DNA from: a virus
Reading direction: 5' to 3' (one strand)
DNA length: 35,216 bases
Virus record (IMG/VR): IMGVR_UViG_3300047478_000188
Location: 1-35,216 of that record
Under the pieces are notes generated by a model. That model was not told the origin of the DNA. It searched no databases and worked only from the letters and a program-made list of their open reading frames with translations. The first letter of the stretch is position 1; each line of letters opens with the position of its first letter. Below are positions 6,444 through 35,216 of this stretch, piece by piece. The position numbers were made by a program, and so were the translations under genes.

Positions 6444-6818
6444 ATGACTATAAGTAATGTAACTACACCTCAAATAGGTACTCGTAGTAAATTCAATGAG
6501 ATTATATCTGCATTGAATAAGATGGGTATGTCTCGTGTAAACTTTAACGGTAATACAGCTGTCATAAGGGATTCCTCATCTGACATATCTAGTATAACTA
6601 AGTTAGGCGGCGGTGATTATGAAATTAATTTTCTTACACCAAAATCTAACACTAATTATACTATTATCGGCAGTTGCAGTGTATGTGCAGGTAATGACAC
6701 TGGATTTGTAATGCTCATAAGTCAGTCTACAAATAAGTTCAGAATTCATTGTCGTAATGATGATGGCGGTATAGGTGACAGTAATACTGTCTGTATAATA
6801 GTTAACACTTCGGAATAA
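6444..6818 (+). CDS. Tail fibre-like protein, first of two tandem paralogues
   Basis: 124 residues. The core (VNFNGN, a run of short strands, LGGGDYEINFLTP, NYTIIGSC, GNDTGFVMLIS, CRNDDGG) is the strand pattern often seen at the C-terminus of phage tail fibres and side proteins. It shares many identical positions with the next gene, including VNF.G, GGG.Y.I.F.TP, NY..(V/I)G.C, AGNDTGFVML and CRNDDGG, so the pair arose by duplication. It starts 2 nt after the tip gene stop. A role in adsorption is inferred from position and fold pattern. Confidence 0.6.
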   Translation: MTISNVTTPQIGTRSKFNEIISALNKMGMSRVNFNGNTAVIRDSSSDISSITKLGGGDYEINFLTPKSNTNYTIIGSCSVCAGNDTGFVMLISQSTNKFRIHCRNDDGGIGDSNTVCIIVNTSE

Positions 6819-6820
6819 TC

Positions 6821-7195
6821 ATGCCAATACCTCTGATGAATGTTGGGGATCCAATTACTGAAGACCTAATGAATTCAATTATAGATGCAATAAATGGGGT
6901 AAGTATTTCTTGGGTTAATTTTCAGGGTACTCCAACTGTAATTGTACGAGAGTTTGCAGGTAACATAGCTGGAGTATCTCATACAGGTGGCGGTGTTTAT
7001 AGAATTACATTCGACACCCCGCGTGCAGATGCAAATTACGCTGTAGTAGGTAACTGTACAGCCAATGCAGGTAATGATACCGGATTTGTAATGCTTGTGA
7101 CTTTGACTACAACTTATGTTGATATTCAGTGTCGCAATGACGATGGTGGTGCTAACGTGGTATCCACCGCAACTGTGATAATAGTCGGAAACTAG
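6821..7195 (+). CDS. Tail fibre-like protein, second tandem paralogue
   Basis: 124 residues, the same length as the gene before it and clearly homologous along the whole length (shared AGNDTGFVML and CRNDDGG blocks). The opening WVNFQGTPTVIV is typical of phage fibre modules. The differences lie in the first 40 residues and in strands between the shared blocks, as expected for two receptor-contact or structural variants. It is 2 nt downstream of its paralogue. Function is inferred from context. Confidence 0.6.
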   Translation: MPIPLMNVGDPITEDLMNSIIDAINGVSISWVNFQGTPTVIVREFAGNIAGVSHTGGGVYRITFDTPRADANYAVVGNCTANAGNDTGFVMLVTLTTTYVDIQCRNDDGGANVVSTATVIIVGN

Positions 7196-8148: not shown

Positions 8149-8181
8149 GAGAACAGAACTAAAAATTCTGTTCTCTTTTTT
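8149..8181 (+). terminator. Intrinsic terminator of the late/lysis operon
   Basis: A perfect 10-bp stem, GAGAACAGAA (8149-8158) with TTCTGTTCTC (8166-8175), encloses a 7-nt loop and is followed by six T (8176-8181). It closes the tail/lysis operon. The T run merges into the start of the 129-bp repeat. A smaller GCCTG/CAGGC hairpin lies just upstream. Confidence 0.9.
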
Positions 8182-8305
8182 ATTTTCAAACGTTAAAATA
8201 CCACGCAGTTTAGTACGTCCGGGAGATTTTAGCGTATATCCGGGAGTCCCGGATACCTAGGACGTATTAATCTAAAGGTAACGGCTCCCGGATAAATTAA
8301 TTCAT
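8177..8305. repeat. 129-bp perfect direct repeat, copy 1
   Basis: Identical base for base with 31433-31561, 23.26 kb away. Inside is a 19-bp odd-centred palindrome TATCCGGGAGTCCCGGATA (8237-8255), nested in an outer inverted pair TACGTCC (8214-8220) and GGACGTA (8260-8266). A further TCCGGGAG (8218-8225) and CTCCCGGA (8285-8292) could pair with each other instead. So there are four TCCGGGA half-sites. Both copies begin at the T run of a terminator. No reading frame is shared across the copies. It could be an operator cluster, an origin element or a structured 5' leader. The stretch 8108-8399 holds only the terminator, this repeat and a promoter. Confidence 0.93.
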
Positions 8306-8336
8306 TAACCGATTTTAATTATATTGATCAAATTAG

Positions 8337-8366
8337 TGTACAAAATACTCACTTACGATATATAAT
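8337..8366 (+). promoter_or_regulatory. Sigma70-like phage promoter for the replication operon
   Basis: TGTACA (8337-8342), an 18-nt spacer and TATAAT (8361-8366), with TTGATCAAA just upstream (from 8324). The same GATCAAA plus TGTAC/TTTACA plus TATAAT layout recurs before eight other genes in the window. The expected start near 8373 gives a leader of about 60 nt before the primase-helicase gene. Confidence 0.75.
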
Positions 8367-10899: not shown

Positions 10900-12747
10900 A
10901 TGACACACGCACTCGATTTAGAAACAGGTTCAAAATCAGGCGATCTTAGTGATGGCTATGCATTGGAACCCTGGCGTGCTAGACAAGGTTTAGCATTCAT
11001 CACTAGTATCCACGTATACGGCGATAAAATCAATCTAGCTGAATTACGGCCTACACGTGATAGATTAGTTGAGATACTCGAATCACTTCGCGGTGAAGAA
11101 GTATATGCTCATTATGCTGTATTTGATTGTGCATGGTTGATAGCATCAATTGAGCCAAATAAGCTGGCACGAATTCACTCCGCTATAACTGGAATTAGAT
11201 GGCGTGATACAGCCTTACTTGCCAAGTGGTGCACCAATGGGCGTAAAGCTGATGATATGAGACTTAGCTATTCTCTAGCTAATCTTATCAATATGTGGAA
11301 AGATAAGTTAGGATTCCCAGGTGCAGAAGATTTTATTAGGATGAAGCAGCAGGAAGTATTAACTGCTAATGATCCATATTGGGAGGCACGTGGTAAATTA
11401 GACGTATTGTGGACATATAGATTAGCTAAGTTTTTAGAAGGTCAATTACCTGCCCCATGTAAACGTGGATTCATAATTGAATCTCATGCTATACCTAAAA
11501 TAGCTAATAGTTGGCTTGTAGGTATGTATGTTAATCAACAGGCACTTAAGTTAGCTGAAGAAGAAACCGAAAAAGACATTCAAGAAGGATGTAAGTTACT
11601 CAATCTTCCTGAATCAGTTATATCTTCACCAGCACAATTAGGTCATGTAGTCTTCGGTCAGTGGGGTTTTACACCTCTTGCATTAACTCCTACAGGTAAA
11701 CCTAAAGCAGATGCAGATACATGGATCTTATTAGCTCATACATCCAATGATCCAAGGTTAAAGCAGTTACTTAAATGTCGTCAAGCTCTTACAATAAGAA
11801 GCAAATACATTAAGACAGCTTACGAAGCACTTGCAAGTACAGGTGATGGCTACCTATATGGTAAGCCTATGATGTTTGGTACTCAGTCGGGACGACTGAC
11901 ATATGCCAGTGAGACACTTGGTAGAAAAGTGTCAATTGCTCAACATCAAATACCTCGTAAAGCTAAGTTGGTTAGAGGTTATTTGGCACCTCCACCAGGC
12001 ATGAAGTTGTATGAAACTGATGCTATGGCCCAAGAATCTCGAATAATGGGTATATGGTCAGGTGATGCTGAAATTATTCGAATCTTCAGGGAAAAAATCA
12101 ATTTCCATAGTTATACAGCTTGTATGATTTATGGTGTGGCCTATGAAGAATTTCAACGGCATTATAAAGCTGAAGTTGCTAAGTATATTGAATGGAGACA
12201 GATGGGTAAGCTTACAAATCTGTCATGTAATTTCAGAATTGGGGGTAAGTCATTGAGTAAGAAGGCTCTTACTGAATATGATACTTATATGTCTGAAATG
12301 GATGGTAGAAAACTTGTCAATACATTCAAACGCACATATAGCGGGGTACCTAGCTATTGGGATGCCATCATTACATTTGCTAAAGCTCATGGATATTCAT
12401 ATACATTAGCACAGCGTAGATGGAAAGTACCTACGGAAATGCTTTCAGGACCTGACGCTTGGAAGGTTGAAGGCACAGTCATTAGCCATCCAATTCAGGG
12501 TACTGGTGGAGATATGTTCTTGGCTGGCATAAGCTCTGTACCTGAAAGCAGAATTCAAACAAACATGCACGATGGTGTATTCTGGATAGTTGAAGATTCA
12601 AAGGAGGGTGAACAAGAATCAGAGCATATTCTTGAACAAATGAATGCAACCGACTATCAACGACTCTGGGATCTACCTGATCCATTGAGTATACCCCTTC
12701 TTTATGAAGGTTCACGACTTGGTACATCTTACGCGGATGTGAAATAA
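10900..12747 (+). CDS. Family A DNA polymerase with 3'-5' exonuclease domain
   Basis: 615 residues. The exonuclease domain begins at once with ALDLETGSK (D6, E8) and continues with AHYAVFDCAWL (second metal-binding Asp). The polymerase domain has SGRLTYAS, motif A TDAMAQESRIMG (Asp and Glu in the Pol I D705/E710 positions), motif B RQMGKLTNLSCNFRIGG (Arg and Lys kept; Leu in the Pol I F762 place) and motif C NMHDGVFW. In motif C, Gly replaces the usual Glu after Asp, and in motif B the normal YG becomes FR. It is the likely replicative polymerase and must accept any modified dNTP. The start is fixed because the first exo motif is at the N-terminus. No Shine-Dalgarno sequence is visible. Confidence 0.9.
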   Translation: MTHALDLETGSKSGDLSDGYALEPWRARQGLAFITSIHVYGDKINLAELRPTRDRLVEILESLRGEEVYAHYAVFDCAWLIASIEPNKLARIHSAITGIRWRDTALLAKWCTNGRKADDMRLSYSLANLINMWKDKLGFPGAEDFIRMKQQEVLTANDPYWEARGKLDVLWTYRLAKFLEGQLPAPCKRGFIIESHAIPKIANSWLVGMYVNQQALKLAEEETEKDIQEGCKLLNLPESVISSPAQLGHVVFGQWGFTPLALTPTGKPKADADTWILLAHTSNDPRLKQLLKCRQALTIRSKYIKTAYEALASTGDGYLYGKPMMFGTQSGRLTYASETLGRKVSIAQHQIPRKAKLVRGYLAPPPGMKLYETDAMAQESRIMGIWSGDAEIIRIFREKINFHSYTACMIYGVAYEEFQRHYKAEVAKYIEWRQMGKLTNLSCNFRIGGKSLSKKALTEYDTYMSEMDGRKLVNTFKRTYSGVPSYWDAIITFAKAHGYSYTLAQRRWKVPTEMLSGPDAWKVEGTVISHPIQGTGGDMFLAGISSVPESRIQTNMHDGVFWIVEDSKEGEQESEHILEQMNATDYQRLWDLPDPLSIPLLYEGSRLGTSYADVK

Positions 12748-12926: not shown

Positions 12927-13607
12927 ATGCTGGCACTGTCGTGGTCTAGACTTAGTACTTACAAACAATGTCCGTTGAAATTTCATCTGACATATATCTC
13001 TAAATCTTTTAAGGAAGAAGAGAAGTCAATCCATCTTATTAAGGGTGAACAACTTCATAAACAGTTAGAAGATTATATTCTAGCTAAAAACGGTGCAGCA
13101 GCAATGCCTCTAGGCTTCTCAGAAGAAGTTAAGAAGGCTTTGCCGTATGTAGATAAGTTATACTCTATATATGACCAAATTTATCCTGAAGCACAAGTAG
13201 CATGTAACATTGAATGGAAGCCGGCCGAATGGTTTGCTAAAACTGTTGCATGGCGTGCTATTTGGGATGCATCTTGTCTTAAGAAGGATACATGCTTCTT
13301 GCCAGACTGGAAGTCCGGTAAAGTGTACCCATTAGGCCAAAGCTATGGTCAGCTACATTTGTCAGCAGTGATTGCATTAGAACGTTGGGCAGACTTGCCT
13401 GAAGTAAACGCTGCTTATGTATATATTGAGCATCAGAAAGTTGTACCTATTAAGGTAACTAGAGAACAGTTACCTGAAGTAAGAACTTACTTTGAGAAAG
13501 AGTTTGAAAAAGTACAGAATGAAAAGGCTTGGGAACCTACAGCCAATGCTAACTGTACCTACTGCCAGGCTACCAAAGCTCAATGTAAGTTCTCTAGAAA
13601 ACTATGA
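12927..13607 (+). CDS. PD-(D/E)XK exonuclease, Cas4/RecB-like, with Fe-S cysteines
   Basis: 226 residues from ATG 12927, with AAGGA about 7 nt upstream. It opens with LSWSRLSTYKQCPLKF (C15) and ends with C210, C213 and C220 (NCTYCQATKAQC). This one-plus-three cysteine layout holds the 4Fe-4S cluster in Cas4 and AddB-type nucleases. LIKGEQLHKQLE provides the conserved His. PDWKSGKVYPLGQSYGQLHL contains the Asp and Lys of the PD-(D/E)XK core and the QxxxY motif. Such nucleases resect DNA ends for recombination. It overlaps the VRR-NUC gene by 4 nt. Phage copies usually act in replication and recombination rather than CRISPR adaptation, and no CRISPR array is seen here. Confidence 0.82.
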   Translation: MLALSWSRLSTYKQCPLKFHLTYISKSFKEEEKSIHLIKGEQLHKQLEDYILAKNGAAAMPLGFSEEVKKALPYVDKLYSIYDQIYPEAQVACNIEWKPAEWFAKTVAWRAIWDASCLKKDTCFLPDWKSGKVYPLGQSYGQLHLSAVIALERWADLPEVNAAYVYIEHQKVVPIKVTREQLPEVRTYFEKEFEKVQNEKAWEPTANANCTYCQATKAQCKFSRKL

Positions 13608-13912
13608 CGCCAGAAGGTAAGGCTAAAGTGAAAATTCGCCAGTGGATCAAGGATAATATGCCTGGATCCTGGCGAGTTTCACCTAAAGGAGGCATCTTTG
13701 GTAAAACAGGATGCCCTGATGATATCATTTGTTGGCGAGGAGTGTTCATCGCCATAGAAATAAAGTCTTTAGAAGGTAATCCAACACCTTCTCAGGTAAA
13801 TGAATTAAACCTTATACGACAAGCTGGAGGTGTGGCAGCTATTGTACGAGGTTACGATGTGCAACGTCTACAGGCAATCAAGAATGCAGCATTAGCTGTT
13901 AGTAAAACATGA
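13604..13912 (+). CDS. VRR-NUC domain nuclease
   Basis: 102 residues. The pattern KGGIFGKTGCPDDIICWRGV followed by FIAIEIKSLEGNPTPSQ is that of stand-alone phage VRR-NUC nucleases: an Asp in GxPD, then Glu-x-Lys in EIKS, and a Gln in PSQ. The family cuts branched or flapped DNA such as Holliday-type junctions. It overlaps genes on both sides by 4 nt (ATGA type), between the Cas4-like nuclease and the SNF2-like helicase, a grouping common in phages. Its substrate here is inferred from family. Confidence 0.85.
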   Translation: MTPEGKAKVKIRQWIKDNMPGSWRVSPKGGIFGKTGCPDDIICWRGVFIAIEIKSLEGNPTPSQVNELNLIRQAGGVAAIVRGYDVQRLQAIKNAALAVSKT

Positions 13913-18985: not shown

Positions 18986-19389
18986 TGAGCAACTCCAGCC
19001 TTTCCCCAGTAATCAACGCCATTTTTGACTTCAATGAACAAGTCATTGGTACAGGTGATGTATCATTGAATACGCTCACTGAAAAACAATTCAATTGGAC
19101 TATTGGGTTCTGTCAAGAAGAACTGGTAGAATTTACTGAGGCCTATCAAAAGCAAGATATTGTCAAGATGGTAGATGGAATTCTTGACCTGATCTACGGT
19201 GCTATGGGTACGCTCAAGAAGATGGGTCTTACTCGTGAACAAGTCTTTGCATGCATGATGGCTATTCACACTGCCAACATGACTAAGAAGAAGGGTATGA
19301 CGGCTCGTGGTTCAGAAGAAGATGCTGCCAAACCTGCAGAATTCGTGCCTCCTGATCAAGCTATCGGTCATATTCTGTTTGGGGAGTGA
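18985..19389 (+). CDS. MazG-like all-alpha nucleotide pyrophosphatase (possible dCTPase)
   Basis: 134 residues. The metal site shows as EELVEFTEA (E-E-x-x-E) and the second helix as VDGILDLIYGAMG (D-x-x-x-D), the standard all-alpha NTP pyrophosphatase signature. The family hydrolyses (d)NTPs to monophosphates. In this operon the sensible job is to convert dCTP to dCMP, playing the role of T4 gp56: it feeds the pyrimidine C5-transferase and keeps unmodified dC out of phage DNA. That substrate choice is inference. It is 4 nt upstream of the kinase gene. The last 35 residues are a low-complexity tail. Confidence 0.78.
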   Translation: MSNSSLSPVINAIFDFNEQVIGTGDVSLNTLTEKQFNWTIGFCQEELVEFTEAYQKQDIVKMVDGILDLIYGAMGTLKKMGLTREQVFACMMAIHTANMTKKKGMTARGSEEDAAKPAEFVPPDQAIGHILFGE

Positions 19390-21229: not shown

Positions 21230-21470
21230 GATGGCTTGGGAGACTTTTGCTGAGCAGCATTTTGATCCATCATTTACAGCTGAACAGCGTCATAATGCTA
21301 AGTACATTTTCTACTGTTGTGCGGTTAGTATGTACAACTTAATGACTGGAGCCCTTAAAAACGATCCATCCATGCGATTATATGTACATGTTTCAGAGTT
21401 AATGCTTGCGGATATAGAGGTTTACTTTAAGCAATTTGATGGTTTACAAACTACCAAGCCAACTCATTGA
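21165..21470 (+). CDS. Helical protein of unknown function
   Basis: 101 residues from ATG 21165, which overlaps the dCMP deaminase gene by 65 nt. ATG 21231, right after the deaminase stop, is an alternative start giving a 79-residue protein that keeps the conserved-looking part (MAWETFAEQHFDPSFTAEQR onward). The C-terminal part is helical (YIFYCCAVSMYNLMTGAL). The Pro- and Asn-rich first 20 residues would only exist with the earlier start. Family not recognised. Confidence 0.6.
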   Translation: MSNQNALPPQGTLPGNSSRPIEMAWETFAEQHFDPSFTAEQRHNAKYIFYCCAVSMYNLMTGALKNDPSMRLYVHVSELMLADIEVYFKQFDGLQTTKPTH

Positions 21471-21479
21471 TCAAAGCTA

Positions 21480-21509
21480 TTTACAACGGCTGCCAGAATG
21501 ATTTATAAT
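21480..21509 (+). promoter_or_regulatory. Sigma70-like phage promoter (TTTACA subclass)
   Basis: GATCAAAG (21469-21476), TTTACA (21480-21485), an 18-nt spacer containing CGGCTGCCAGAATGAT, and TATAAT (21504-21509). It is nearly identical to the promoters at 30902 and 32109 even within the spacer. The GATCAAA overlaps the stop codon of the previous gene. Expected start near 21516. Confidence 0.82.
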
Positions 21510-21528
21510 TAATTTAGAGGTGATAAAA

Positions 21529-24559: not shown

Positions 24560-24789
24560 TGCATCCTAGTAATATTGACCTAATGTGGGTAGTTACAATC
24601 AATTACACTAACTATAAGGGTCAAACGGCTAATCGAAAGATTGTACCTCATTCAATTCATTTTGGTAAAACTGAGTTTCATCCTCAACCTCAATGGTTAT
24701 TGACTGCTACTGACATAGATAAGAACGAATTAAGAGTATTTGCTTTGAAAGACATCCATTCTTGGATTAATTCTTGGAGTGATTCATGA
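24559..24789 (+). CDS. Small WYL-like fold protein
   Basis: 76 residues from ATG 24559, sharing one base with the ThyX stop. VTINYTNYKGQTANRKIVPHSIHFG, W48-type QWLLTATDIDKNELRVFALKDIHSW resembles a single WYL domain (Y-N-x-G, R-x-I-P, W-x-L-x-A, R-x-F-x-L-x-x-I). Stand-alone WYL-like proteins occur in phages; WYL domains often sense nucleic acids or nucleotides. No DNA-binding domain is attached. Fold assignment is by pattern only. Confidence 0.55.
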   Translation: MHPSNIDLMWVVTINYTNYKGQTANRKIVPHSIHFGKTEFHPQPQWLLTATDIDKNELRVFALKDIHSWINSWSDS

Positions 24790-25202
24790 TTACTAATTAT
24801 GTCCTCGGATTTGCTTTTGACGATCTTGATCGAGTGGCTCTTATTTGCAAGAATAAGCCTAAATGGCAAGCAGGTAAATGGAATGGAATTGGCTGTAAGA
24901 TTGAGGGCAATGAATCTACTGACAAAGCTATGGCACACCAGTTTCATGAAGAAACTGGTGTGTTTGTGCCGCCTGAATTCTGGCGTCCAATCGGATTAAT
25001 GCACCTGCCTTCGGCCAATGTATGTGTATTTACATATTCTGGTGCAATAATCCGGAATGTATTCACTGCTGAAACAGAGGAAGTTAGATTATTTACACTT
25101 TCAGAAGTGAATTTTTTACCTACATTGAGCAATATTCCTGCGCAAATAGCTCTCTGCAAGGTTAAAGATATGATTGATTTCACAATTAACTTCAGCCAAT
25201 AG
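24786..25202 (+). CDS. Divergent Nudix hydrolase
   Basis: 138 residues, ATGA overlap with the previous gene. The Nudix region reads GCKIEGNESTDKAMAHQFHE followed by ETGV. Compared with GGKIExGE-x7-REUxEExG, the R-E pair is replaced by His-Gln, while the later two Glu (HEE) and Gly are kept. The flanking WQAGKWNGIG strand fits the fold. Nudix proteins clean up nucleotide pools or cut capped or ADP-ribose compounds. The changed R-E pair suggests altered chemistry or substrate. It is the last gene of the ligase/ThyX operon. Confidence 0.75.
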   Translation: MITNYVLGFAFDDLDRVALICKNKPKWQAGKWNGIGCKIEGNESTDKAMAHQFHEETGVFVPPEFWRPIGLMHLPSANVCVFTYSGAIIRNVFTAETEEVRLFTLSEVNFLPTLSNIPAQIALCKVKDMIDFTINFSQ

Positions 25203-25272
25203 TTATCCGGGACTCCCGGATAACTAGCGCGTATTAACATAAATATAGCGGCTCCCGGAAAAATTAAATCAT
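25203..25272. repeat. Diverged partial copy of the 129-bp repeat
   Basis: Begins right after the Nudix stop codon. It matches the 3' half of the repeats at 8177 and 31433. A 21-bp perfect palindrome spans 25203-25223, with centre C instead of G and arms extended by one base on each side. CTAG, GTATTAA, CGGCTCCCGGA and AAATTAA blocks then follow at the same spacing. The first part of the repeat (outer TACGTCC arm) is absent. Preservation of the palindrome despite sequence drift argues for function. 25273-25317 shows nothing else. Confidence 0.75.
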
Positions 25273-27970: not shown

Positions 27971-28053
27971 TTATACATGTTGGTAATGAGGTGTTGGTGC
28001 AACCGCTTTATCAACCCATCCGACCAAGCACCGTTCTCTAAAGGATGACAGAA

Positions 28054-28647
28054 ATGTCCGAAACCCAAGAAACATCCACTCCTGTGGAAACCCAAGCTGG
28101 CGCGGCTTCGCAAAGCCCTGTCAGTGCCTCAGCTGAAGCGGCTCGCAAGCGTGCGGCTGCTGCCAACTTCCTGCCGATCGTTCGCGGTCGCCTGCCATTG
28201 CTCTTCGTGCATGCCCTGCGTTTCGACGCCGTTCTGTTGGCCCTGTCTACCAAGGACGCTGCCACCAAGTTCGGTACGTCGGTGGGCAAGGTGTTCGACA
28301 TCCGCAAGGGCCGCAACTTCGCCTACATCACGGCTGACTTCAAGCCGTCTGCAGAAGATGTTGCACAAGCTGAAGCCTGGATCGCGCAAGTCGGCGGCGC
28401 CAATGCCAAGGGCTTGACTGCAAACGGTGACAAGAACGTGATGCAAGCAACGCTCGATCAGTACAAGGCTCAAGGCCTGGCCTCGGTCGAAGAAAGCGCC
28501 AAGTTTGCAGCTGTTCGCACCTCGACACGAGCCAAGGCCACGGTGGCTCCCGCTTCCACAGGCCTGGTGGCGAATACCACGGCAACTCCGGTTCAGACCG
28601 AAGCTGTGCAGAACGTGGCCAATGCGGCGGATGACCTGCTGAGCTAA
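28054..28647 (+). CDS. Unknown protein with GC-rich codon use, probably abundant
   Basis: 197 residues from ATG 28054; AAAGGA (28040-28045) fits this start better than ATG 28045, which it overlaps. It has a Thr/Ala/Gln-rich N-terminus and a KKR-like basic patch. A compact centre (FLPIVRGRLPLLFVHALRFD, STKDAATKFGTSVGKVFDIR) could be helix-turn-helix-like. The tail is Ala/Thr-rich and low-complexity. Codons end in C or G (CTG, GCC, CGC, AAG) far more than in the surrounding genes. That fits adaptation to a GC-rich host for high expression, or recent transfer. Family not recognised. Confidence 0.75.
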   Translation: MSETQETSTPVETQAGAASQSPVSASAEAARKRAAAANFLPIVRGRLPLLFVHALRFDAVLLALSTKDAATKFGTSVGKVFDIRKGRNFAYITADFKPSAEDVAQAEAWIAQVGGANAKGLTANGDKNVMQATLDQYKAQGLASVEESAKFAAVRTSTRAKATVAPASTGLVANTTATPVQTEAVQNVANAADDLLS

Positions 28648-28726
28648 GCTCAACTGGGCGGCGAAAGGGGTTAGTCTCCCGAGGTCTTAAAATTGTAAAG
28701 TTTTAAGATCTGAAGATGACTTGAGC
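28648..28726 (+). ncRNA. Predicted structured RNA segment A
   Basis: Directly follows the stop codon. GCTCAA (28648-28653) can pair with TTGAGC (28721-28726). Inside is a strong 11-position hairpin AGGTCTTAAAA (28682-28692) with TTTTAAGATCT (28701-28711) containing one G-U pair, plus a small GGG/CCC hairpin. There is no T run of terminator type and no reading frame. It may be part of a longer RNA with the next element. Confidence 0.4.
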
Positions 28727-28753
28727 CTGGGCATGCAAAGGAACTGCCTAAAG

Positions 28754-28884
28754 TTATTATAGGGAGATGCTTGATTCCAGTGGGAGAGTGGTTACTCACT
28801 TAAATAGTACCGTGCGTTCAAGAAAGTCTGCAGCTTCGCTTGAACCTAAACAATGACTTATAGCCAAGCATCTCCCTATAATAA
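28754..28884 (+). ncRNA. Predicted structured RNA B, closed by a perfect 20-bp helix, 3 nt before tRNA-Pro
   Basis: TTATTATAGGGAGATGCTTG (28754-28773) is the exact reverse complement of 28865-28884. The 91 nt between contain AGTGGG/CTCACT and GTTCAAG/CTTGAAC (with AAG/CTT inside) hairpins, so a branched fold is likely. tRNA-Pro starts at 28888. No coding frame fits. It contains TAGTACCGT, which also occurs in element E. Chance pairing of 20 bp is very unlikely. Function unknown. Confidence 0.65.
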
Positions 28885-28887
28885 TTT

Positions 28888-29696: not shown

Positions 29697-29778
29697 AGGG
29701 AATTAGCTCAGTCTGGTAGAGCAGCTCATGGACTAGTACATGAGAAGGTCCTTGGTTCAAATCCTTGATTCCCTACCA
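29697..29778 (+). tRNA. tRNA-like gene with abnormal anticodon arm
   Basis: 82 nt with encoded CCA, about 5 nt longer than a normal class I tRNA. The acceptor AGGGAAT/ATTCCCT is perfect and the D arm GCTC-AGTCTGGTA-GAGC is normal. The anticodon arm is CTCATG-GACTAGTA-CATGAG, a 6-bp stem with an 8-nt loop, in which U33 is not in its usual place. An AGU reading would need a three-base bulge. The T arm CTTGG-TTCAAAT-CCTTG has two U-U mismatches. The anticodon cannot be assigned: it may be a decayed tRNA or a special tRNA-like RNA. Confidence 0.6.
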
Positions 29779-30664: not shown

Positions 30665-30892
30665 ATGCAATTCAGGGATATAGCCCAAATTTTACACAAA
30701 GATCCAAATCGTACTATAGTATCTTCAATCAAACGTATTAAGCATATTGCGGGCGGATTTATTCAATTATTTACTATCGACTCCAGACACGGTGTAGATA
30801 GACTTTTTGGTATAACTGTACACGACTTTCATATCGATGATAGCTATGATAATTACTATGTCAGAGCGCTCTTGAATGCTAGAAAGCGTTGA
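30665..30892 (+). CDS. Small basic protein of unknown function
   Basis: 75 residues. MQFRDIAQILHKDPNRTIVS then IKRIKHIAGGFIQLFTID and a C-terminal VRALLNARKR suggest a mixed fold with a basic start and end. No ribosome binding site is clear. Its stop codon (TGA, 30890-30892) overlaps the GATCAAA of the next promoter, as also happens at 21469. Family not recognised. Confidence 0.5.
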   Translation: MQFRDIAQILHKDPNRTIVSSIKRIKHIAGGFIQLFTIDSRHGVDRLFGITVHDFHIDDSYDNYYVRALLNARKR

Positions 30893-30901
30893 TCAAAGCT
30901 A

Positions 30902-30931
30902 TTTACAACGGCTGCCAGGAAGAGTTATAAT
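30902..30931 (+). promoter_or_regulatory. Sigma70-like phage promoter (TTTACA subclass), abutting a start codon
   Basis: GATCAAA (30891-30897), TTTACA (30902-30907), an 18-nt spacer with CGGCTGCCAGGAAGAG, and TATAAT (30926-30931). It is almost the same as the promoter at 21480. The ATG at 30938 lies exactly where transcription should begin, so the mRNA would be leaderless. Confidence 0.8.
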
Positions 30932-30937
30932 TATAAC

Positions 30938-31337: not shown

Positions 31338-31398
31338 ATAGTACTACAGCGCCGTGAGTGGCCCGCCTTTTGTAGAGAATACTTTCGGCGGGCCCTCT

Positions 31399-31437
31399 AA
31401 AAAGGTTTATAATTCACTCAGGATTATAAACCTTTTT
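31399..31437 (+). terminator. Strong intrinsic terminator before repeat copy 2
   Basis: A perfect 15-bp stem, AAAAAGGTTTATAAT (31399-31413) with ATTATAAACCTTTTT (31423-31437), around a 9-nt loop. The A run and T run make it work in both directions. Just upstream is another perfect 8-bp inverted pair, GGCCCGCC (31360-31367) and GGCGGGCC (31387-31394). The T run overlaps the start of the 129-bp repeat, as at 8177. Confidence 0.85.
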
Positions 31438-31561
31438 ATTTTCAAACGTTAAAATACCACGCAGTTTAGTACGTCCGGGAGATTTTAGCGTATATCCGGG
31501 AGTCCCGGATACCTAGGACGTATTAATCTAAAGGTAACGGCTCCCGGATAAATTAATTCAT
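31433..31561. repeat. 129-bp perfect direct repeat, copy 2
   Basis: Identical to 8177-8305. The palindrome lies at 31493-31511. The repeat ends with its last base immediately before the ATG at 31562, so here it forms the whole region between a terminator and a gene. Either it contains a promoter or the gene is reached by readthrough. I see no standard -35/-10 pair in it. Confidence 0.93.
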
Positions 31562-31801
31562 ATGACAGCAACCCCTTATCAGAAACGTGTTTATCAGCAA
31601 GGTATTGACTGGGTCAATGGTAAACCAGTTCATAATACTGTTGATGACGAATGTTGTCCTGACTTCTCATGCTGTTTTCCAGCATTATTTGAAACTGATA
31701 AGAAGATTCGCATAGCTATGCATAATAAGTTTGCCACATTTTGTGGATTACCTCTAGTACCTGAAATCAAACCTGCTGTAAAAGGAATTAATCATGTCTG
31801 A
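31562..31801 (+). CDS. Small Cys-rich conserved phage protein
   Basis: 79 residues, starting directly at the end of repeat copy 2. DDECCPDFSCCFPALF contains two CC pairs, a motif I have seen in short phage proteins of unknown role (CCPDFSCC). It could bind a metal. No Shine-Dalgarno sequence is seen; the upstream bases are the AAATTAATTCAT end of the repeat. It overlaps the next gene by 8 nt. Confidence 0.65.
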   Translation: MTATPYQKRVYQQGIDWVNGKPVHNTVDDECCPDFSCCFPALFETDKKIRIAMHNKFATFCGLPLVPEIKPAVKGINHV

Positions 31802-32099
31802 CAAAATTATTCTTGCAGATAGCGGTACTGTAATCCAAATAATGCCAGTATCATCTTTTATAAAGAACAACAGTGCTATATCTTATGTAAGTATTTTAGC
31901 TAAACATACTATTGAAGATAATGCTTATATACCAGCACAAAGTATAGATATAATGTTTAAGTCTACTGTACATAGTCAGGGATCATTAGATGATCTTATA
32001 TCAGCATTAATAGATGTGAAGGTACAGCATCTTAATGCTATTGAAGGTCCCACAGATAGTTCAACAATCAAAATTGGGGACTATGAAATTAAGCTCTAA
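31794..32099 (+). CDS. Protein of unknown function
   Basis: 101 residues, overlapping the previous gene by 8 nt with AAAGGAAT upstream. Alternating hydrophobic strands (MSDKIILADSGTVIQIMPVS) are followed by a helix near LDDLISALIDVKVQHL and a final short strand (IKIGDYEIKL). Its stop codon overlaps the AATCAAA of the next promoter. Family not recognised. Confidence 0.6.
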   Translation: MSDKIILADSGTVIQIMPVSSFIKNNSAISYVSILAKHTIEDNAYIPAQSIDIMFKSTVHSQGSLDDLISALIDVKVQHLNAIEGPTDSSTIKIGDYEIKL

Positions 32100-32108
32100 T
32101 CAAACTTG

Positions 32109-32138
32109 TTTACAACGGTAGCCAGAATGATTTATAAT
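32109..32138 (+). promoter_or_regulatory. Sigma70-like phage promoter (TTTACA subclass)
   Basis: AATCAAA (32098-32104), TTTACA (32109-32114), an 18-nt spacer with CGGTAGCCAGAATGAT, and TATAAT (32133-32138). The spacer differs from the promoter at 21480 at very few positions. Expected start near 32145, with GGGAG before ATG 32167. Confidence 0.82.
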
Positions 32139-32166
32139 TGAATTACGTTGTAAATGGGAGTCAGTC

Positions 32167-32427
32167 ATGATCATGCAGATTTTTGAGACTTCTAAGATTG
32201 GTGATTCTGGTCATCCAATTCGTCAGATGGTTGTGCAGTGTCATATCAGTGATATGAAAATGGCTCAAATGCTGAATGATCATGGAGGTAGTCAGGATTT
32301 GTCTTTGGTTTTGAAGTTGTTGCCTGATTTCATGTTGGACAACATCTTTAATATGACACATCATGTGGCGGTCTTCACGTTGAAAGAACCTAAACATGTT
32401 TGTGAAGTGTGCAGTGAAAGTACTTAA
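32167..32427 (+). CDS. Small protein of unknown function
   Basis: 86 residues, with GGGAG at good distance from ATG 32167. MIMQIFETSKIGDSGHPIRQ opens a strand-rich half, then a helix (LSLVLKLLPDFMLDNIF). It ends in CEVCSEST, with a Cys-x2-Cys pair that may bind metal. First gene behind its promoter. Family not recognised. Confidence 0.6.
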   Translation: MIMQIFETSKIGDSGHPIRQMVVQCHISDMKMAQMLNDHGGSQDLSLVLKLLPDFMLDNIFNMTHHVAVFTLKEPKHVCEVCSEST

Positions 32428-32441
32428 CTTCGGAAATCATC

Positions 32442-32558
32442 ATGTATCATACTTGGGTTTACAACGGTGTCCGCAAGACTGGCTATTTCAATGATCAAGG
32501 CTACTTGATCATCATCCGGAAAGAGCCAGCTGTAGGTCGTCTGTCAGTAGGTGTTTGA
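32442..32558 (+). CDS. Small 38-residue protein
   Basis: MYHTWVYNGVRKTGYFNDQG continues to a short basic C-terminus with a YLIIIRKEP strand. The strand-turn-strand look (WVYNGVRKTGYF) is gene-like. It lies 14 nt after the previous stop and before the next gene's ribosome binding site. No strong ribosome binding site of its own is seen. Function unknown. Confidence 0.45.
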   Translation: MYHTWVYNGVRKTGYFNDQGYLIIIRKEPAVGRLSVGV

Positions 32559-32580
32559 TTTTCAACTTCTGGAGAATATC

Positions 32581-32976
32581 GTGAGCAAGATCCCTACCAA
32601 TGCAATTCAACTCGGCGATGAAGATGGTACATATCGCCCGGCTTATCGTGGTCGTGTGAGTCATAACAATGGTTCTGGTCATGATGGCATGAGTGTGCAA
32701 CAACGTCGTGAATGGAAGATCACGACCGAGTTCATCCAAGCCAATGCCTGGCGGCGCAAGTTCAAGGCTCACATGGCTGCCGTTCGTGAAGAGGTCAAGA
32801 CCAAGGACGTGCAGTTTGCTGTCACGACCAAGGCCATCAAGCCGAAGGTTAGTTTCCGAGATTGGCGCATCGCACTTCGCAGTCGTGATGAGCAACGTGC
32901 TCGTATGCAGAAGAAGGCCGCCTTCGTGCCGCCCAAGACTACTGCAAATGTTTCAACGCCAATGTTGAAGAAGTAA
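32581..32976 (+). CDS. Basic protein of unknown function with GC-leaning codons
   Basis: 131 residues from GTG 32581, chosen because TGGAG (32569-32573) is at ribosome-binding distance. A longer frame from GTG 32551 overlaps the previous gene. The protein is rich in Arg and Lys (RREWKITTEFIQANAWRRKF, SRDEQRARMQKK) and has a Pro/Thr-rich tail, so it may bind nucleic acid. GC-ending codons suggest high expression. Family not recognised. Confidence 0.6.
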   Translation: MSKIPTNAIQLGDEDGTYRPAYRGRVSHNNGSGHDGMSVQQRREWKITTEFIQANAWRRKFKAHMAAVREEVKTKDVQFAVTTKAIKPKVSFRDWRIALRSRDEQRARMQKKAAFVPPKTTANVSTPMLKK

Positions 32977-32983
32977 TTCTTTG

Positions 32984-32999
32984 CAGGCCGAAAGGCCTG
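32984..32999 (+). terminator. Stable GAAA-loop hairpin, possible weak terminator
   Basis: CAGGCC-GAAA-GGCCTG, a perfect 6-bp stem with a GNRA tetraloop, lies between two genes. The following bases (TAATT) give only a weak T stretch, so it may protect mRNA ends or attenuate rather than fully terminate. Confidence 0.5.
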
Positions 33000-33014
33000 T
33001 AATTCGGAGTCAGA

Positions 33015-33263
33015 ATGAGTCGCACAATTATTGTAACTGTTCATCCGGGTGTTGGGCCTGGGGAATATACTGCCCAATTAAAGGGCGGCAATGCACATGT
33101 TCGTGCAGGGTCTCAAATTGTCGGGACTGAACAGTCAGTACTGAACTTTCATCATGATGATAAACTACTTGACGCGTTGCATGGTCAGTACTTAGATGTA
33201 CGTGATTATGCTAAGGCGTATGCATTACAACTTGTGCATAAACACTTGCGTGATCGAGCTTGA
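33015..33263 (+). CDS. Small protein of unknown function
   Basis: 82 residues, with CGGAGTC before ATG 33015. MSRTIIVTVHPGVGPGEYTA begins a beta-rich half, followed by a helix (YLDVRDYAKAYALQLVHKHL). Soluble, mildly basic at the end. Family not recognised. Confidence 0.6.
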   Translation: MSRTIIVTVHPGVGPGEYTAQLKGGNAHVRAGSQIVGTEQSVLNFHHDDKLLDALHGQYLDVRDYAKAYALQLVHKHLRDRA

Positions 33264-33296
33264 AGTTTTGATTATTGGTCTTTGAGGCATAAGAGT

Positions 33297-33623
33297 ATGC
33301 AGTATAGTGCGCATAACCCCGACCCTGCTAGGTTAGTGTGTCATTGTAAAGCTTATGCCTTTCCACATAGGATTGGGTCAGGTCCATGTGAAGCTACTTA
33401 CAACACAGCTTATCGCACTGATCCAACTGATTACAGGGTTGAGTTTGACCCAATTTGCTCTGAGTGTGGTTTAGCGTCTGAATCTAAGGAGGTTAATGAG
33501 GGAATAGGCTGCTATGAGTTTTGGGGTGCACCCGGCGTGGATAATGACTGGGTGCGTATTAGTGAATGTTGTGGAGCCCCAATGGCTCCAAATTCTGCTG
33601 ACACAGTAAAGGATATAAAATGA
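33297..33623 (+). CDS. Cys-rich zinc-binding-like protein
   Basis: 108 residues from ATG 33297, with GAGG (33284-33287) upstream; TTG 33282 is in frame but overlaps that site. Cysteine pairs at CHCKAY, DPICSECG and SECCGAP suggest one or two zinc sites. The overall layout looks like a small treble-clef or ribbon protein, which often binds nucleic acids. It overlaps the next gene as ATGA. Confidence 0.6.
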   Translation: MQYSAHNPDPARLVCHCKAYAFPHRIGSGPCEATYNTAYRTDPTDYRVEFDPICSECGLASESKEVNEGIGCYEFWGAPGVDNDWVRISECCGAPMAPNSADTVKDIK

Positions 33624-34291
33624 TGAACACCAAATTTGAATTCCCTGAGTGGATGGGCGAGATTCCCCGGCAAAATGCTTTGTGGTGTGATAAAGAAGAT
33701 GAGGTCTTGAAGAGAGGCTTTAAGATCAACAGGACTCTCAAAGACATTGCTGCAAAACATGGTCGGCATACCTCAGGTATTATCAATCGTTTGCGTAAGC
33801 TTTTCCCAGACCATGTCTTGTATGGACTACAAAAGGGTAGACTTGAAAGCCAGGGTATTTATTTCAAAGATGAATTGCCAGCATCAAGCATTGGCTATAT
33901 CAGTATATTGTTTCAAGCTGAAATTCTGACTGCTGAAGAATTTACTCAGAATTTCCCTGATAGGGCCTTTAAGACTATCAATAATCCTCATATGAAGCAG
34001 GTTGTCAAAGTTAGTGTTTACGATAGTCAATATAGGATTAAAGAACGTCTTATGGAATTTGACAAAGAAATGCGTACCCAAAAAGAAGTAGTTCAGCACT
34101 TGAATAAAGATATTACAAGTGTTGGTGTGAAACTTCGAGCTCATGGTGAAGACATTGACCGAGTTACAAGCAACCTTGATCGCTTGTCAACTAATGTTGA
34201 TGCACAGACAGCCCGACTTGATGCACAGACTCATACTCTTTACCAGATCAAAGAGAATCTGGATACTTTGTTGAAAGAATCTGATTACTGA
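33620..34291 (+). CDS. Predicted DNA-binding protein with long C-terminal coiled coil
   Basis: 223 residues; ATG 33620 or 33623 could start. Residues 20-62 (ALWCDKEDEVLKRGFKINRT, then LKDIAAKHGRHTSGIINRLRKLF) have the pattern of a helix-turn-helix with W-x3-E-D start, like SANT or GcrA-type domains. Residues about 145-220 form heptads (LMEFDKEMRTQKEVVQHLNK; VDAQTARLDAQTHTLYQIKE), a coiled coil for self-assembly. A role in transcription control or DNA bridging is inferred. It is the largest gene of this small-gene region. Confidence 0.6.
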   Translation: MMNTKFEFPEWMGEIPRQNALWCDKEDEVLKRGFKINRTLKDIAAKHGRHTSGIINRLRKLFPDHVLYGLQKGRLESQGIYFKDELPASSIGYISILFQAEILTAEEFTQNFPDRAFKTINNPHMKQVVKVSVYDSQYRIKERLMEFDKEMRTQKEVVQHLNKDITSVGVKLRAHGEDIDRVTSNLDRLSTNVDAQTARLDAQTHTLYQIKENLDTLLKESDY

Positions 34292-34315
34292 TGTAAACCT
34301 GAGGTTGTAGCAAAT

Positions 34316-34340
34316 AAGGCTAACTGTGAAAGTTAGCCTT
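34316..34340 (+). terminator. Hairpin terminator-like element
   Basis: AAGGCTAAC (34316-34324) pairs perfectly with GTTAGCCTT (34332-34340) around a 7-nt loop, 25 nt after the coiled-coil protein gene. The trailing AATCATT is only weakly T-rich. Confidence 0.6.
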
Positions 34341-34365
34341 AATCATTATAACTTATGGATTAATT

Positions 34366-34668
34366 ATGGCTAAGTCTTTTCCTGAATACAAGGAGCTTTC
34401 TGATGATGAATATCAAGCAATTATAAGAAGTAGAGGAGGTTGTAATTGTGCATATCTTGGATCTGTCGGAGGAGCTCCTTGTCATAATTGTACTGACACA
34501 ATTACTGATGAGGAAATGGAAGATTATGGCACTATAATAGAAATTACAGCTGAACCTGAAATTCAACCTGAAATTGATGAGCCATTTTATAAGCATATTC
34601 ATCAATTCATTAGGTATAAATCTAGCAGATTCAAGTTTTGTCTGAAGTGTGACAAAATCAAGACCTAA
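34366..34668 (+). CDS. Cys-containing protein of unknown function
   Basis: 100 residues. Cysteines at GGCNC, PCHNC and a C-terminal FCLKCDKIKT pair suggest a metal site. The middle is acidic (DTITDEEMEDYGTIIEITAE). There is no strong ribosome binding site upstream (ATTAATT). Family not recognised. Confidence 0.55.
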   Translation: MAKSFPEYKELSDDEYQAIIRSRGGCNCAYLGSVGGAPCHNCTDTITDEEMEDYGTIIEITAEPEIQPEIDEPFYKHIHQFIRYKSSRFKFCLKCDKIKT

Positions 34669-34686
34669 TAATTTTGATTAGAAGTG

Positions 34687-34715
34687 TGTACTCCTGGCTA
34701 CTTGTGTTGTATAAT
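34687..34715 (+). promoter_or_regulatory. Sigma70-like phage promoter with start-site hairpin
   Basis: TTGATTAGA upstream, TGTACT (34687-34692), a 17-nt spacer with CCTGGCTACTTGTG, and TATAAT (34710-34715). The predicted RNA begins at about 34722, inside a perfect inverted pair ATAGTGC (34720-34726) and GCACTAT (34733-34739), which would leave a hairpin at the mRNA 5' end. CAGGAG follows as ribosome binding site. Confidence 0.8.
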
Positions 34716-34753
34716 ATTTATAGTGCAATATCGCACTATGTCAGGAGATTCAA

Positions 34754-35047
34754 ATGTTTGGAACAATCACTATTGCAGACCTCACAATCCATTTTGGCAT
34801 GATTGCAGCTAACAATGTGGTGGACATGACTGATCCATTGCCTGATGATGCCAAATTCAACGTGACAACAATGGACTGCATTGATGGTGAGACCCGTACT
34901 GCAGTCGTGGACGGCAACAAGTTTACCAAGGCGCTTGCATTGGCCTTGCTCTTTGATGGCAGGATCCCTGATACTGCTGATGAAGTCTTGGCCTTCTGGA
35001 AGGACGCTGAAGAAGCTGTGAAAGATCTGCATCGCATCATGCCGTAA
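34754..35047 (+). CDS. Small acidic protein of unknown function
   Basis: 97 residues, with CAGGAG before ATG 34754. MFGTITIADLTIHFGMIAAN starts a beta-rich half; the C-terminal half is helical (VLAFWKDAEEAVKDLHRI). Codons are more GC-ending than in most neighbours. The strong promoter, 5' hairpin and good ribosome binding site suggest high expression. Family not recognised. Confidence 0.65.
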   Translation: MFGTITIADLTIHFGMIAANNVVDMTDPLPDDAKFNVTTMDCIDGETRTAVVDGNKFTKALALALLFDGRIPDTADEVLAFWKDAEEAVKDLHRIMP

Positions 35048-35056
35048 GTAAACGGT

Positions 35057-35081
35057 GGCCTATATCATGGTGGTATAGGCC
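35057..35081 (+). terminator. Hairpin terminator-like element
   Basis: GGCCTATA (35057-35064) pairs with TATAGGCC (35074-35081), loop of 9 nt, just after the acidic protein gene. A TAAACTTATTTT stretch follows, giving a delayed T-rich run. Confidence 0.6.
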
Positions 35082-35102
35082 TAAACTTATTTTGGAGTAC
35101 AT

Positions 35103-35216
35103 ATGGCTGATTATATCGTATGCACTAGCCACGGCATTTGGGAGTGCCCTATGCAAGAGGCGGTGTTCTGGAACATGGTAAATGGCTGGTTTAGTTCACC
35201 TGAAAGGGTGGATCCA
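35103..35216 (+). CDS. Start of a gene cut by the window end
   Basis: 38 codons visible from ATG 35103, with TTGGAG upstream (35092-35097). MADYIVCTSHGIWECPMQEA continues to FWNMVNGWFSSPERVDP. Trp-rich. Too short to identify. Confidence 0.6.
   Translation, partial: MADYIVCTSHGIWECPMQEAVFWNMVNGWFSSPERVDP

Follow-up and report, generated by a model that had tools for sequence, protein, structure and literature searches.

The question raised by this locus is what a 129-bp sequence, found twice without a single difference at distant operon boundaries in a record classed as viral, does for its genome, and how the copies came to be identical. The record (35,216 bp, analysed whole and referred to here as the window) has a replication module resembling those of Xanthomonas phage Xp15 and Acinetobacter phages Effie and MD-2021a, with DNA polymerases approximately 38% identical; IMG/VR was the sole source of closer relatives.

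A four-box element in the window and its relatives

The two copies, at positions 8177–8305 and 31433–31561 (both + strand), form a direct repeat with 100% identity over 129 bp, as the earlier note had reported, and both begin in the T run of a terminator-like structure. The T run at the first copy belongs to the intrinsic terminator of the tail operon (8149–8182, + strand, stem 8149–8175), while the second copy starts within the 3′ arm and T run of a strong stem-loop (31398–31438, + strand, z −8.05) and is followed immediately by the ATG of an ORF at 31562–31801. Each contains four copies of the 7-mer TCCGGGA. In copy 1, boxes 1 (8218–8224) and 2 (8239–8245, 21 bp after box 1) are on the + strand, and boxes 3 (8247–8253) and 4 (8286–8292, 39 bp after box 3 and preceded by an invariant CGG) are on the − strand, reading TCCCGGA on the + strand. 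Box 3 is the palindrome partner of box 2, and together they lie in a 19-bp palindrome, TATCCGGGAGTCCCGGATA (8237–8255), with a 17-bp core for which the chance expectation was 0 in 100 shuffles. The half-sites and palindrome were thus as first described. The outer TACGTCC/GGACGTA pair that had also been pointed out is present in copy 1 but is not conserved among relatives. A third, diverged copy (25204–25272, + strand) had been overlooked. It is 84% identical over 69 bp, retains only boxes 2, 3 and 4, and lies directly past the stop codon of a NUDIX gene (24786–25202) and before a tRNA-Leu gene. The window has 11 TCCGGGA words, every one of them within these three elements.

The earlier note had called for a search of relatives for further copies, and had named absence of the repeat from close relatives as a refuting result. 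Such absence was not what was observed: a profile search built from the element recovered it from 11 related viral contigs, whose genomes span 40–63% GC. In an alignment of 17 distinct elements, the 7-mer was nearly invariant at all four sites and the remainder variable, and with few exceptions the boxes were spaced 21, 8 and 39 bp apart, start to start. When a scan that presupposed no particular box sequence was used, eight instances were found with four boxes free of mismatches at this spacing (38 bp for the last interval in one), namely the two identical copies in the window, one of the same sequence in the relative G1, four in G2 and one in G3; shuffled sequences gave none.

Across the collections searched, this group of phages was the only one in which the element was found. 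The pattern was absent from 84,980 prokaryote genomes, those IMG/VR matches that could be assigned were relatives of the window phage, and a BLASTN search with the repeat found no match among INPHARED phages or PLSDB plasmids. No relative of the DNA polymerase was confirmed in the same 84,980 genomes, so neither a prophage nor a host was identified. Avoidance of the box elsewhere in the genome is not general, since G9 has 12 boxes outside its elements where 13.2 are expected. In the contig L009 (IMGVR_UViG_3300044806_000288), further clusters of TCCGGGA with irregular spacing were seen at 11023–11150 and 11590–11650, beside a regular element at 11710–11801. Isolated TCCGGGAG words occur outside the four-box elements at 19314 and 35810 in G2 (loci L020 and L021), and these may be decayed or minimal elements.

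Position relative to terminators, promoters and start codons

Copy 1 lies between the terminator of the tail operon and the early promoter of the replication operon, which is of the phage type TTGATCAAA-GTGTACA-N18-TATAAT (8324–8366, + strand, 43 bp past box 4). An element was found upstream of the primase gene in the window, G2, G3, G6, G8, G9, L035 and L053. There it precedes a promoter with the pattern TGATCAAA-GTGTACA-N-TATAAT, and at most of these loci the tail operon ends just before it in a T-rich stretch or a structure resembling a terminator. Judged by this shared order of tail-operon terminator, element, early promoter and primase gene, copy 1 is orthologous across the relatives. The site after the NUDIX gene is a second orthologous locus, common to the window and G2.

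A promoter of the phage type was found 23–77 bp after box 4 at 11 of 18 loci, against a background of 0.14–0.40 motifs per kb, though eight of these 11 are orthologues and are not independent observations. About one-third of the loci have no downstream promoter. In most of these a start codon lies 10–17 nt past box 4, and one has a tRNA gene instead. Placement immediately upstream of a start codon was clear at copy 2 in the window, G2_29872, G9_48963 and L038, but not at the promoter-type loci. The idea that the element itself conceals a promoter was also considered and rejected; a −10-like TATAAA is present in some copies, but no −35 match accompanies it.

A family of early promoters that recurs in the window and in its relatives has an unusual −35 region, with TGATCAAA ahead of GTGTACA or GTTTACA and TATAAT after it. 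In the window, members of this family are located at 8324–8366, 10865, 15312, 25779, 27941, 32108 and 34686. Three near-identical promoter-like stretches of 45 nt (TTTACAACGGCTGCCAGAATGATTTATAAT) were also seen at 21467–21511, 30889–30933 and 32096–32140, and their GCCAG spacer is conserved in G1 and G2.

The fixed geometry, the orthologous positions and a box sequence that is specific to each lineage (see below) favour an operator-like element bound by protein. We therefore consider, with moderate confidence, that the repeat belongs to a dispersed family of protein-binding elements that are located at the borders of transcription units and control transcription there via a phage protein. The phages that carry it, relatives of Xp15, would form a clade of siphoviruses with an apparently virulent lifestyle. 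A DNA-binding protein encoded by the phage, for which a small helix-turn-helix (HTH) family is the candidate, would bind the palindromic pair formed by boxes 2 and 3, and the fixed spacing would let the same protein reach boxes 1 and 4, giving a higher-order complex covering approximately 80 bp. Such a complex may regulate the early promoter 23–77 bp downstream, or it may block read-through from upstream. The start codons found 10–17 nt after box 4 at several loci would fit a leader RNA equally well and count against the operator reading.

A leader RNA, in which boxes 1 and 4 and boxes 2 and 3 pair and an alternative pairing of 1 with 3 and 2 with 4 switches translation or processing downstream, is an unlikely explanation, and RNA pairing is not well supported. 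The orientation of the boxes (+,+,−,−) is what nested pairing requires and the copy in the window folds better than shuffled sequences (z −4.29), but the RNAalifold covariation term was unfavourable (+1.43), counted covariation was borderline (score 0.099, reached by 12 of 500 shuffles) and pairing does not reach into the flanks. The element in G1_11726 has lost box 2 and yet retained box 3. The position of copy 1 and its orthologues, past a terminator and ahead of the promoter, places them outside the main transcript, and in Effie elements are found in both orientations within one intergenic gap of a single operon. A search of the window with Rfam found that only tRNAs reached gathering scores, and the element matched no known RNA family. 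What keeps the RNA reading alive are the copies close to start codons, where GGAG-like sequences are found in box 4 at G2 and L038 and where the elements of Xp15 also terminate just upstream of start codons, together with one position in the helix of boxes 2 and 3 at which the pair moves from G:C through G:U to A:U. Of the four functions that had been suggested for the repeat (operator, replication element, recombination site or leader RNA), the comparative data thus favour the operator-like element and weaken the leader RNA.

Sites dispersed for a replication initiator, a partition protein or a DNA-organising protein appear less probable again. One copy is always just upstream of the primase gene, copies are spread across many kilobases and G1 has a cluster of boxes inside a poorly coding region. 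However, element positions follow the ends of transcription units, and a search for the ParB domain (PF02195) found no match in seven related records, some of which are fragments. GC skew had been proposed as a means of revealing an origin; when this was run on G9, the cumulative minimum was at 41.5 kb, away from each of its three elements, and no origin was indicated at any of them.

Lineage-specific boxes and a candidate binding protein

A scan of Xp15, Effie and MD-2021a found no TCCGGGA elements. These phages carry dispersed elements of their own with the box CGCTCTGA/TCAGAGCG, arranged as inverted pairs 57–74 bp apart, and the CGCTCTGA box is shared by L039, L040 and L055. A further relative, L052, has a third box, GTAGCCAGATT. 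L035 has a polymerase with 73% identity to the window's, and in this contig boxes 1 and 2 read TCCGGAA and box 3 has the matching change. From their shared layout and gene context, rather than alignable sequence, we infer that the TCCGGGA, TCCGGAA, CGCTCTGA and GTAGCCAGATT elements are versions of one system. The spacing in the distant clade differs from that of the TCCGGGA elements, so these two families are putatively homologous. Searches of the open literature, including searches on Xp15, Alachuavirus and Effie, gave no description of the elements.

The use of one box throughout a genome, and of another in a different lineage, points to a co-evolving DNA-binding protein that acts in trans. 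Pairing within RNA would not by itself hold unlinked loci to the same sequence. Two families of small proteins with HTH-like segments, distributed across the clade, are candidates for this role. One is found in G1 (two copies), Xp15, Effie, MD-2021a, G7 and G9, and its predicted structure includes a confident four-helix C-terminal HTH domain behind a long helix. The other is represented in the window (28045–28647, + strand), G2, Xp15, Effie, MD-2021a and others. For the modelled protein of the first family, Foldseek and VIA-align comparisons with the PDB yielded no more than weak matches to HTH proteins in general, and no family was assigned. The putative link between these proteins and the element comes from their co-occurrence and nearness; in G1 an HTH gene directly follows an element and a promoter. 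The candidate gene in the window is covered by a GC-rich island (28000–28800, 54–59% GC) in a genome of 40% GC.

It is possible, as a speculative extension, that these elements make up a boundary code common to the clade. A phage protein and its multi-box elements would insulate blocks of genes, the recognition word would be swapped wholesale between lineages and conversion would keep the copies within a genome alike, with excision of the replication block possibly a by-product.

Several dispersed elements in other phages provide comparisons. The 15-bp SPBRE motif (SPbeta repeated element) of the temperate Bacillus phage SPbeta is bound by the master repressor MrpR, which was identified decades after the element itself (PMC10516654). 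Like SPBRE, the element described here is conserved and repeated at intergenic and promoter regions over the phage genome, but it is a four-box structure of approximately 80 bp with a predicted binding protein, in phages where no integrase was found. A search of seven records for the tyrosine-recombinase fold of MrpR with PF00589 found no match, though MrpR lacks the recombinase residues and a protein of this type might escape the model. The Cluster O mycobacteriophages, such as Corndog, carry more than 30 single 17-bp palindromes, a third of them inside genes (PMC4351075). These are likewise dispersed palindromes proposed to bind dimeric regulators, and deletions in these phages have been ascribed to recombination between repeats (PMC4351075), whereas here there are three to six compound, mostly intergenic, elements per genome.

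The extended start-associated sequences (ESAS) of Cluster K mycobacteriophages are 17-bp inverted repeats with a spacer of 4–13 bp, found beside a 13-bp SAS at the start codon (PMC3203893). They resemble the present elements in being inverted repeats upstream of genes, tied to gene families and with a consensus that varies by subcluster. Here, however, the boxes are 7 bp long and spaced at 21, 8 and 39 bp, and what follows at most loci is a promoter rather than a start codon. The stoperators of Cluster A mycobacteriophages are likewise present at many places in the genome and are served by a single phage protein, which has a further action on transcription during elongation, but each is a short, asymmetric, single site for the repressor of a temperate phage (PMC9283540); the element here differs from sites so described in being compound with a palindromic core. 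The put site of HK022 is likewise a phage cis element that acts on early-gene transcription, but it does so as nascent RNA (PMC9378689), while the main copies here are upstream of the early promoter. By analogy, the closest functional counterparts of the element are probably SPBRE and the palindromes of Cluster O, with its compound geometry and lineage-specific words setting it apart. With different words at the same loci, it offers a ready system for examining how a phage regulator and its many sites shift specificity together, and isolated phages of the CGCTCTGA type (Xp15 and Effie) are available for laboratory tests of binding and function.

Origin of the 129-bp identity

Outside the boxes, the element differs at about half of its positions between related phages. 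As this sequence diverges freely, the best explanation for identity over the full 129 bp within one genome is that duplication or conversion took place recently. Of the three causes that the earlier note had offered for it, duplication or conversion is therefore favoured for the 129 bp, and strict selection for the element itself. Copy 2 includes a stretch upstream of box 1 that, at the primase-type loci of relatives, follows the tail terminator, which suggests that copy 1 was the likely donor. Near-identical pairs occur elsewhere, with an independent analogue in L055 (134 bp, 98.5% identical, 7.2 kb apart) and an inverted 70-bp pair in L052 (97%). The similarity of paralogues within the window, and of those within G2, equals or exceeds that of orthologues between the two, which suggests that copies are homogenised within a genome.

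An alternative junction is on record in L009. This contig matches 5102–8305 of the window without difference and 31433–35216 with one indel, and the outer flanks are joined via a single copy of the repeat, with the 23-kb segment containing the primase and polymerase genes missing. Synteny in the relatives indicates that the arrangement around copy 1 in the window is native, and L009 would then represent either a deletion by recombination between the repeats, of the kind described in Cluster O phages (PMC4351075), or an assembly jump.

The L009 junction and the near-identical duplicates in L055 and L052 would be expected if the element were a recombination site or mobile unit and the segment between direct copies could be excised. 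We consider this distinctly improbable. Orthologous positions are stable over diverged phages, no tyrosine integrase (PF00589) was detected in seven records, and no resolvase (PF00239) exceeded the cut-off in them, with one sub-threshold match in G9. The junction reciprocal to that in L009, sought in IMG/VR via each inner flank, was not found. In addition, k-mers of 127 bases are usual in assemblies of this kind, and the repeat, at 129 bp, is longer, so the L009 junction may be an assembly jump. The closeness of these lengths, with the alternative junction itself, could also mean that copy 2 is a false repeat created in assembly, but this is very improbable. The 129 bp are joined to four different flanks, which requires two copies whatever the pairing of the flanks. 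The pairing of the left flank with the primase at copy 1 matches the arrangement in relatives, and the diverged third copy cannot have arisen as an artefact of this type.

Other repeats and tRNA features were recorded in the course of this work. At the end of the tail module (6444–7195), two adjacent genes for 124-aa proteins share an 85-nt stretch that is 75% identical, and represent a tandem duplication. In L009, a long run of degenerate tandem repeats of the type ATTACATA (13399–13885) lies ahead of the terminase gene, where the sequence is only weakly coding. In the window, a 23-nt inverted repeat (28751–28887, 96% identical, arms 91 nt apart) ends exactly at the start of a tRNA-Pro gene (28888). 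A tRNA detected by Rfam at 29697–29775 (45.6 bits) was not listed by ARAGORN. The other tRNAs in the window are Leu, Arg, Met, Pro and Thr, and ARAGORN listed none in L009, G2 or G3.
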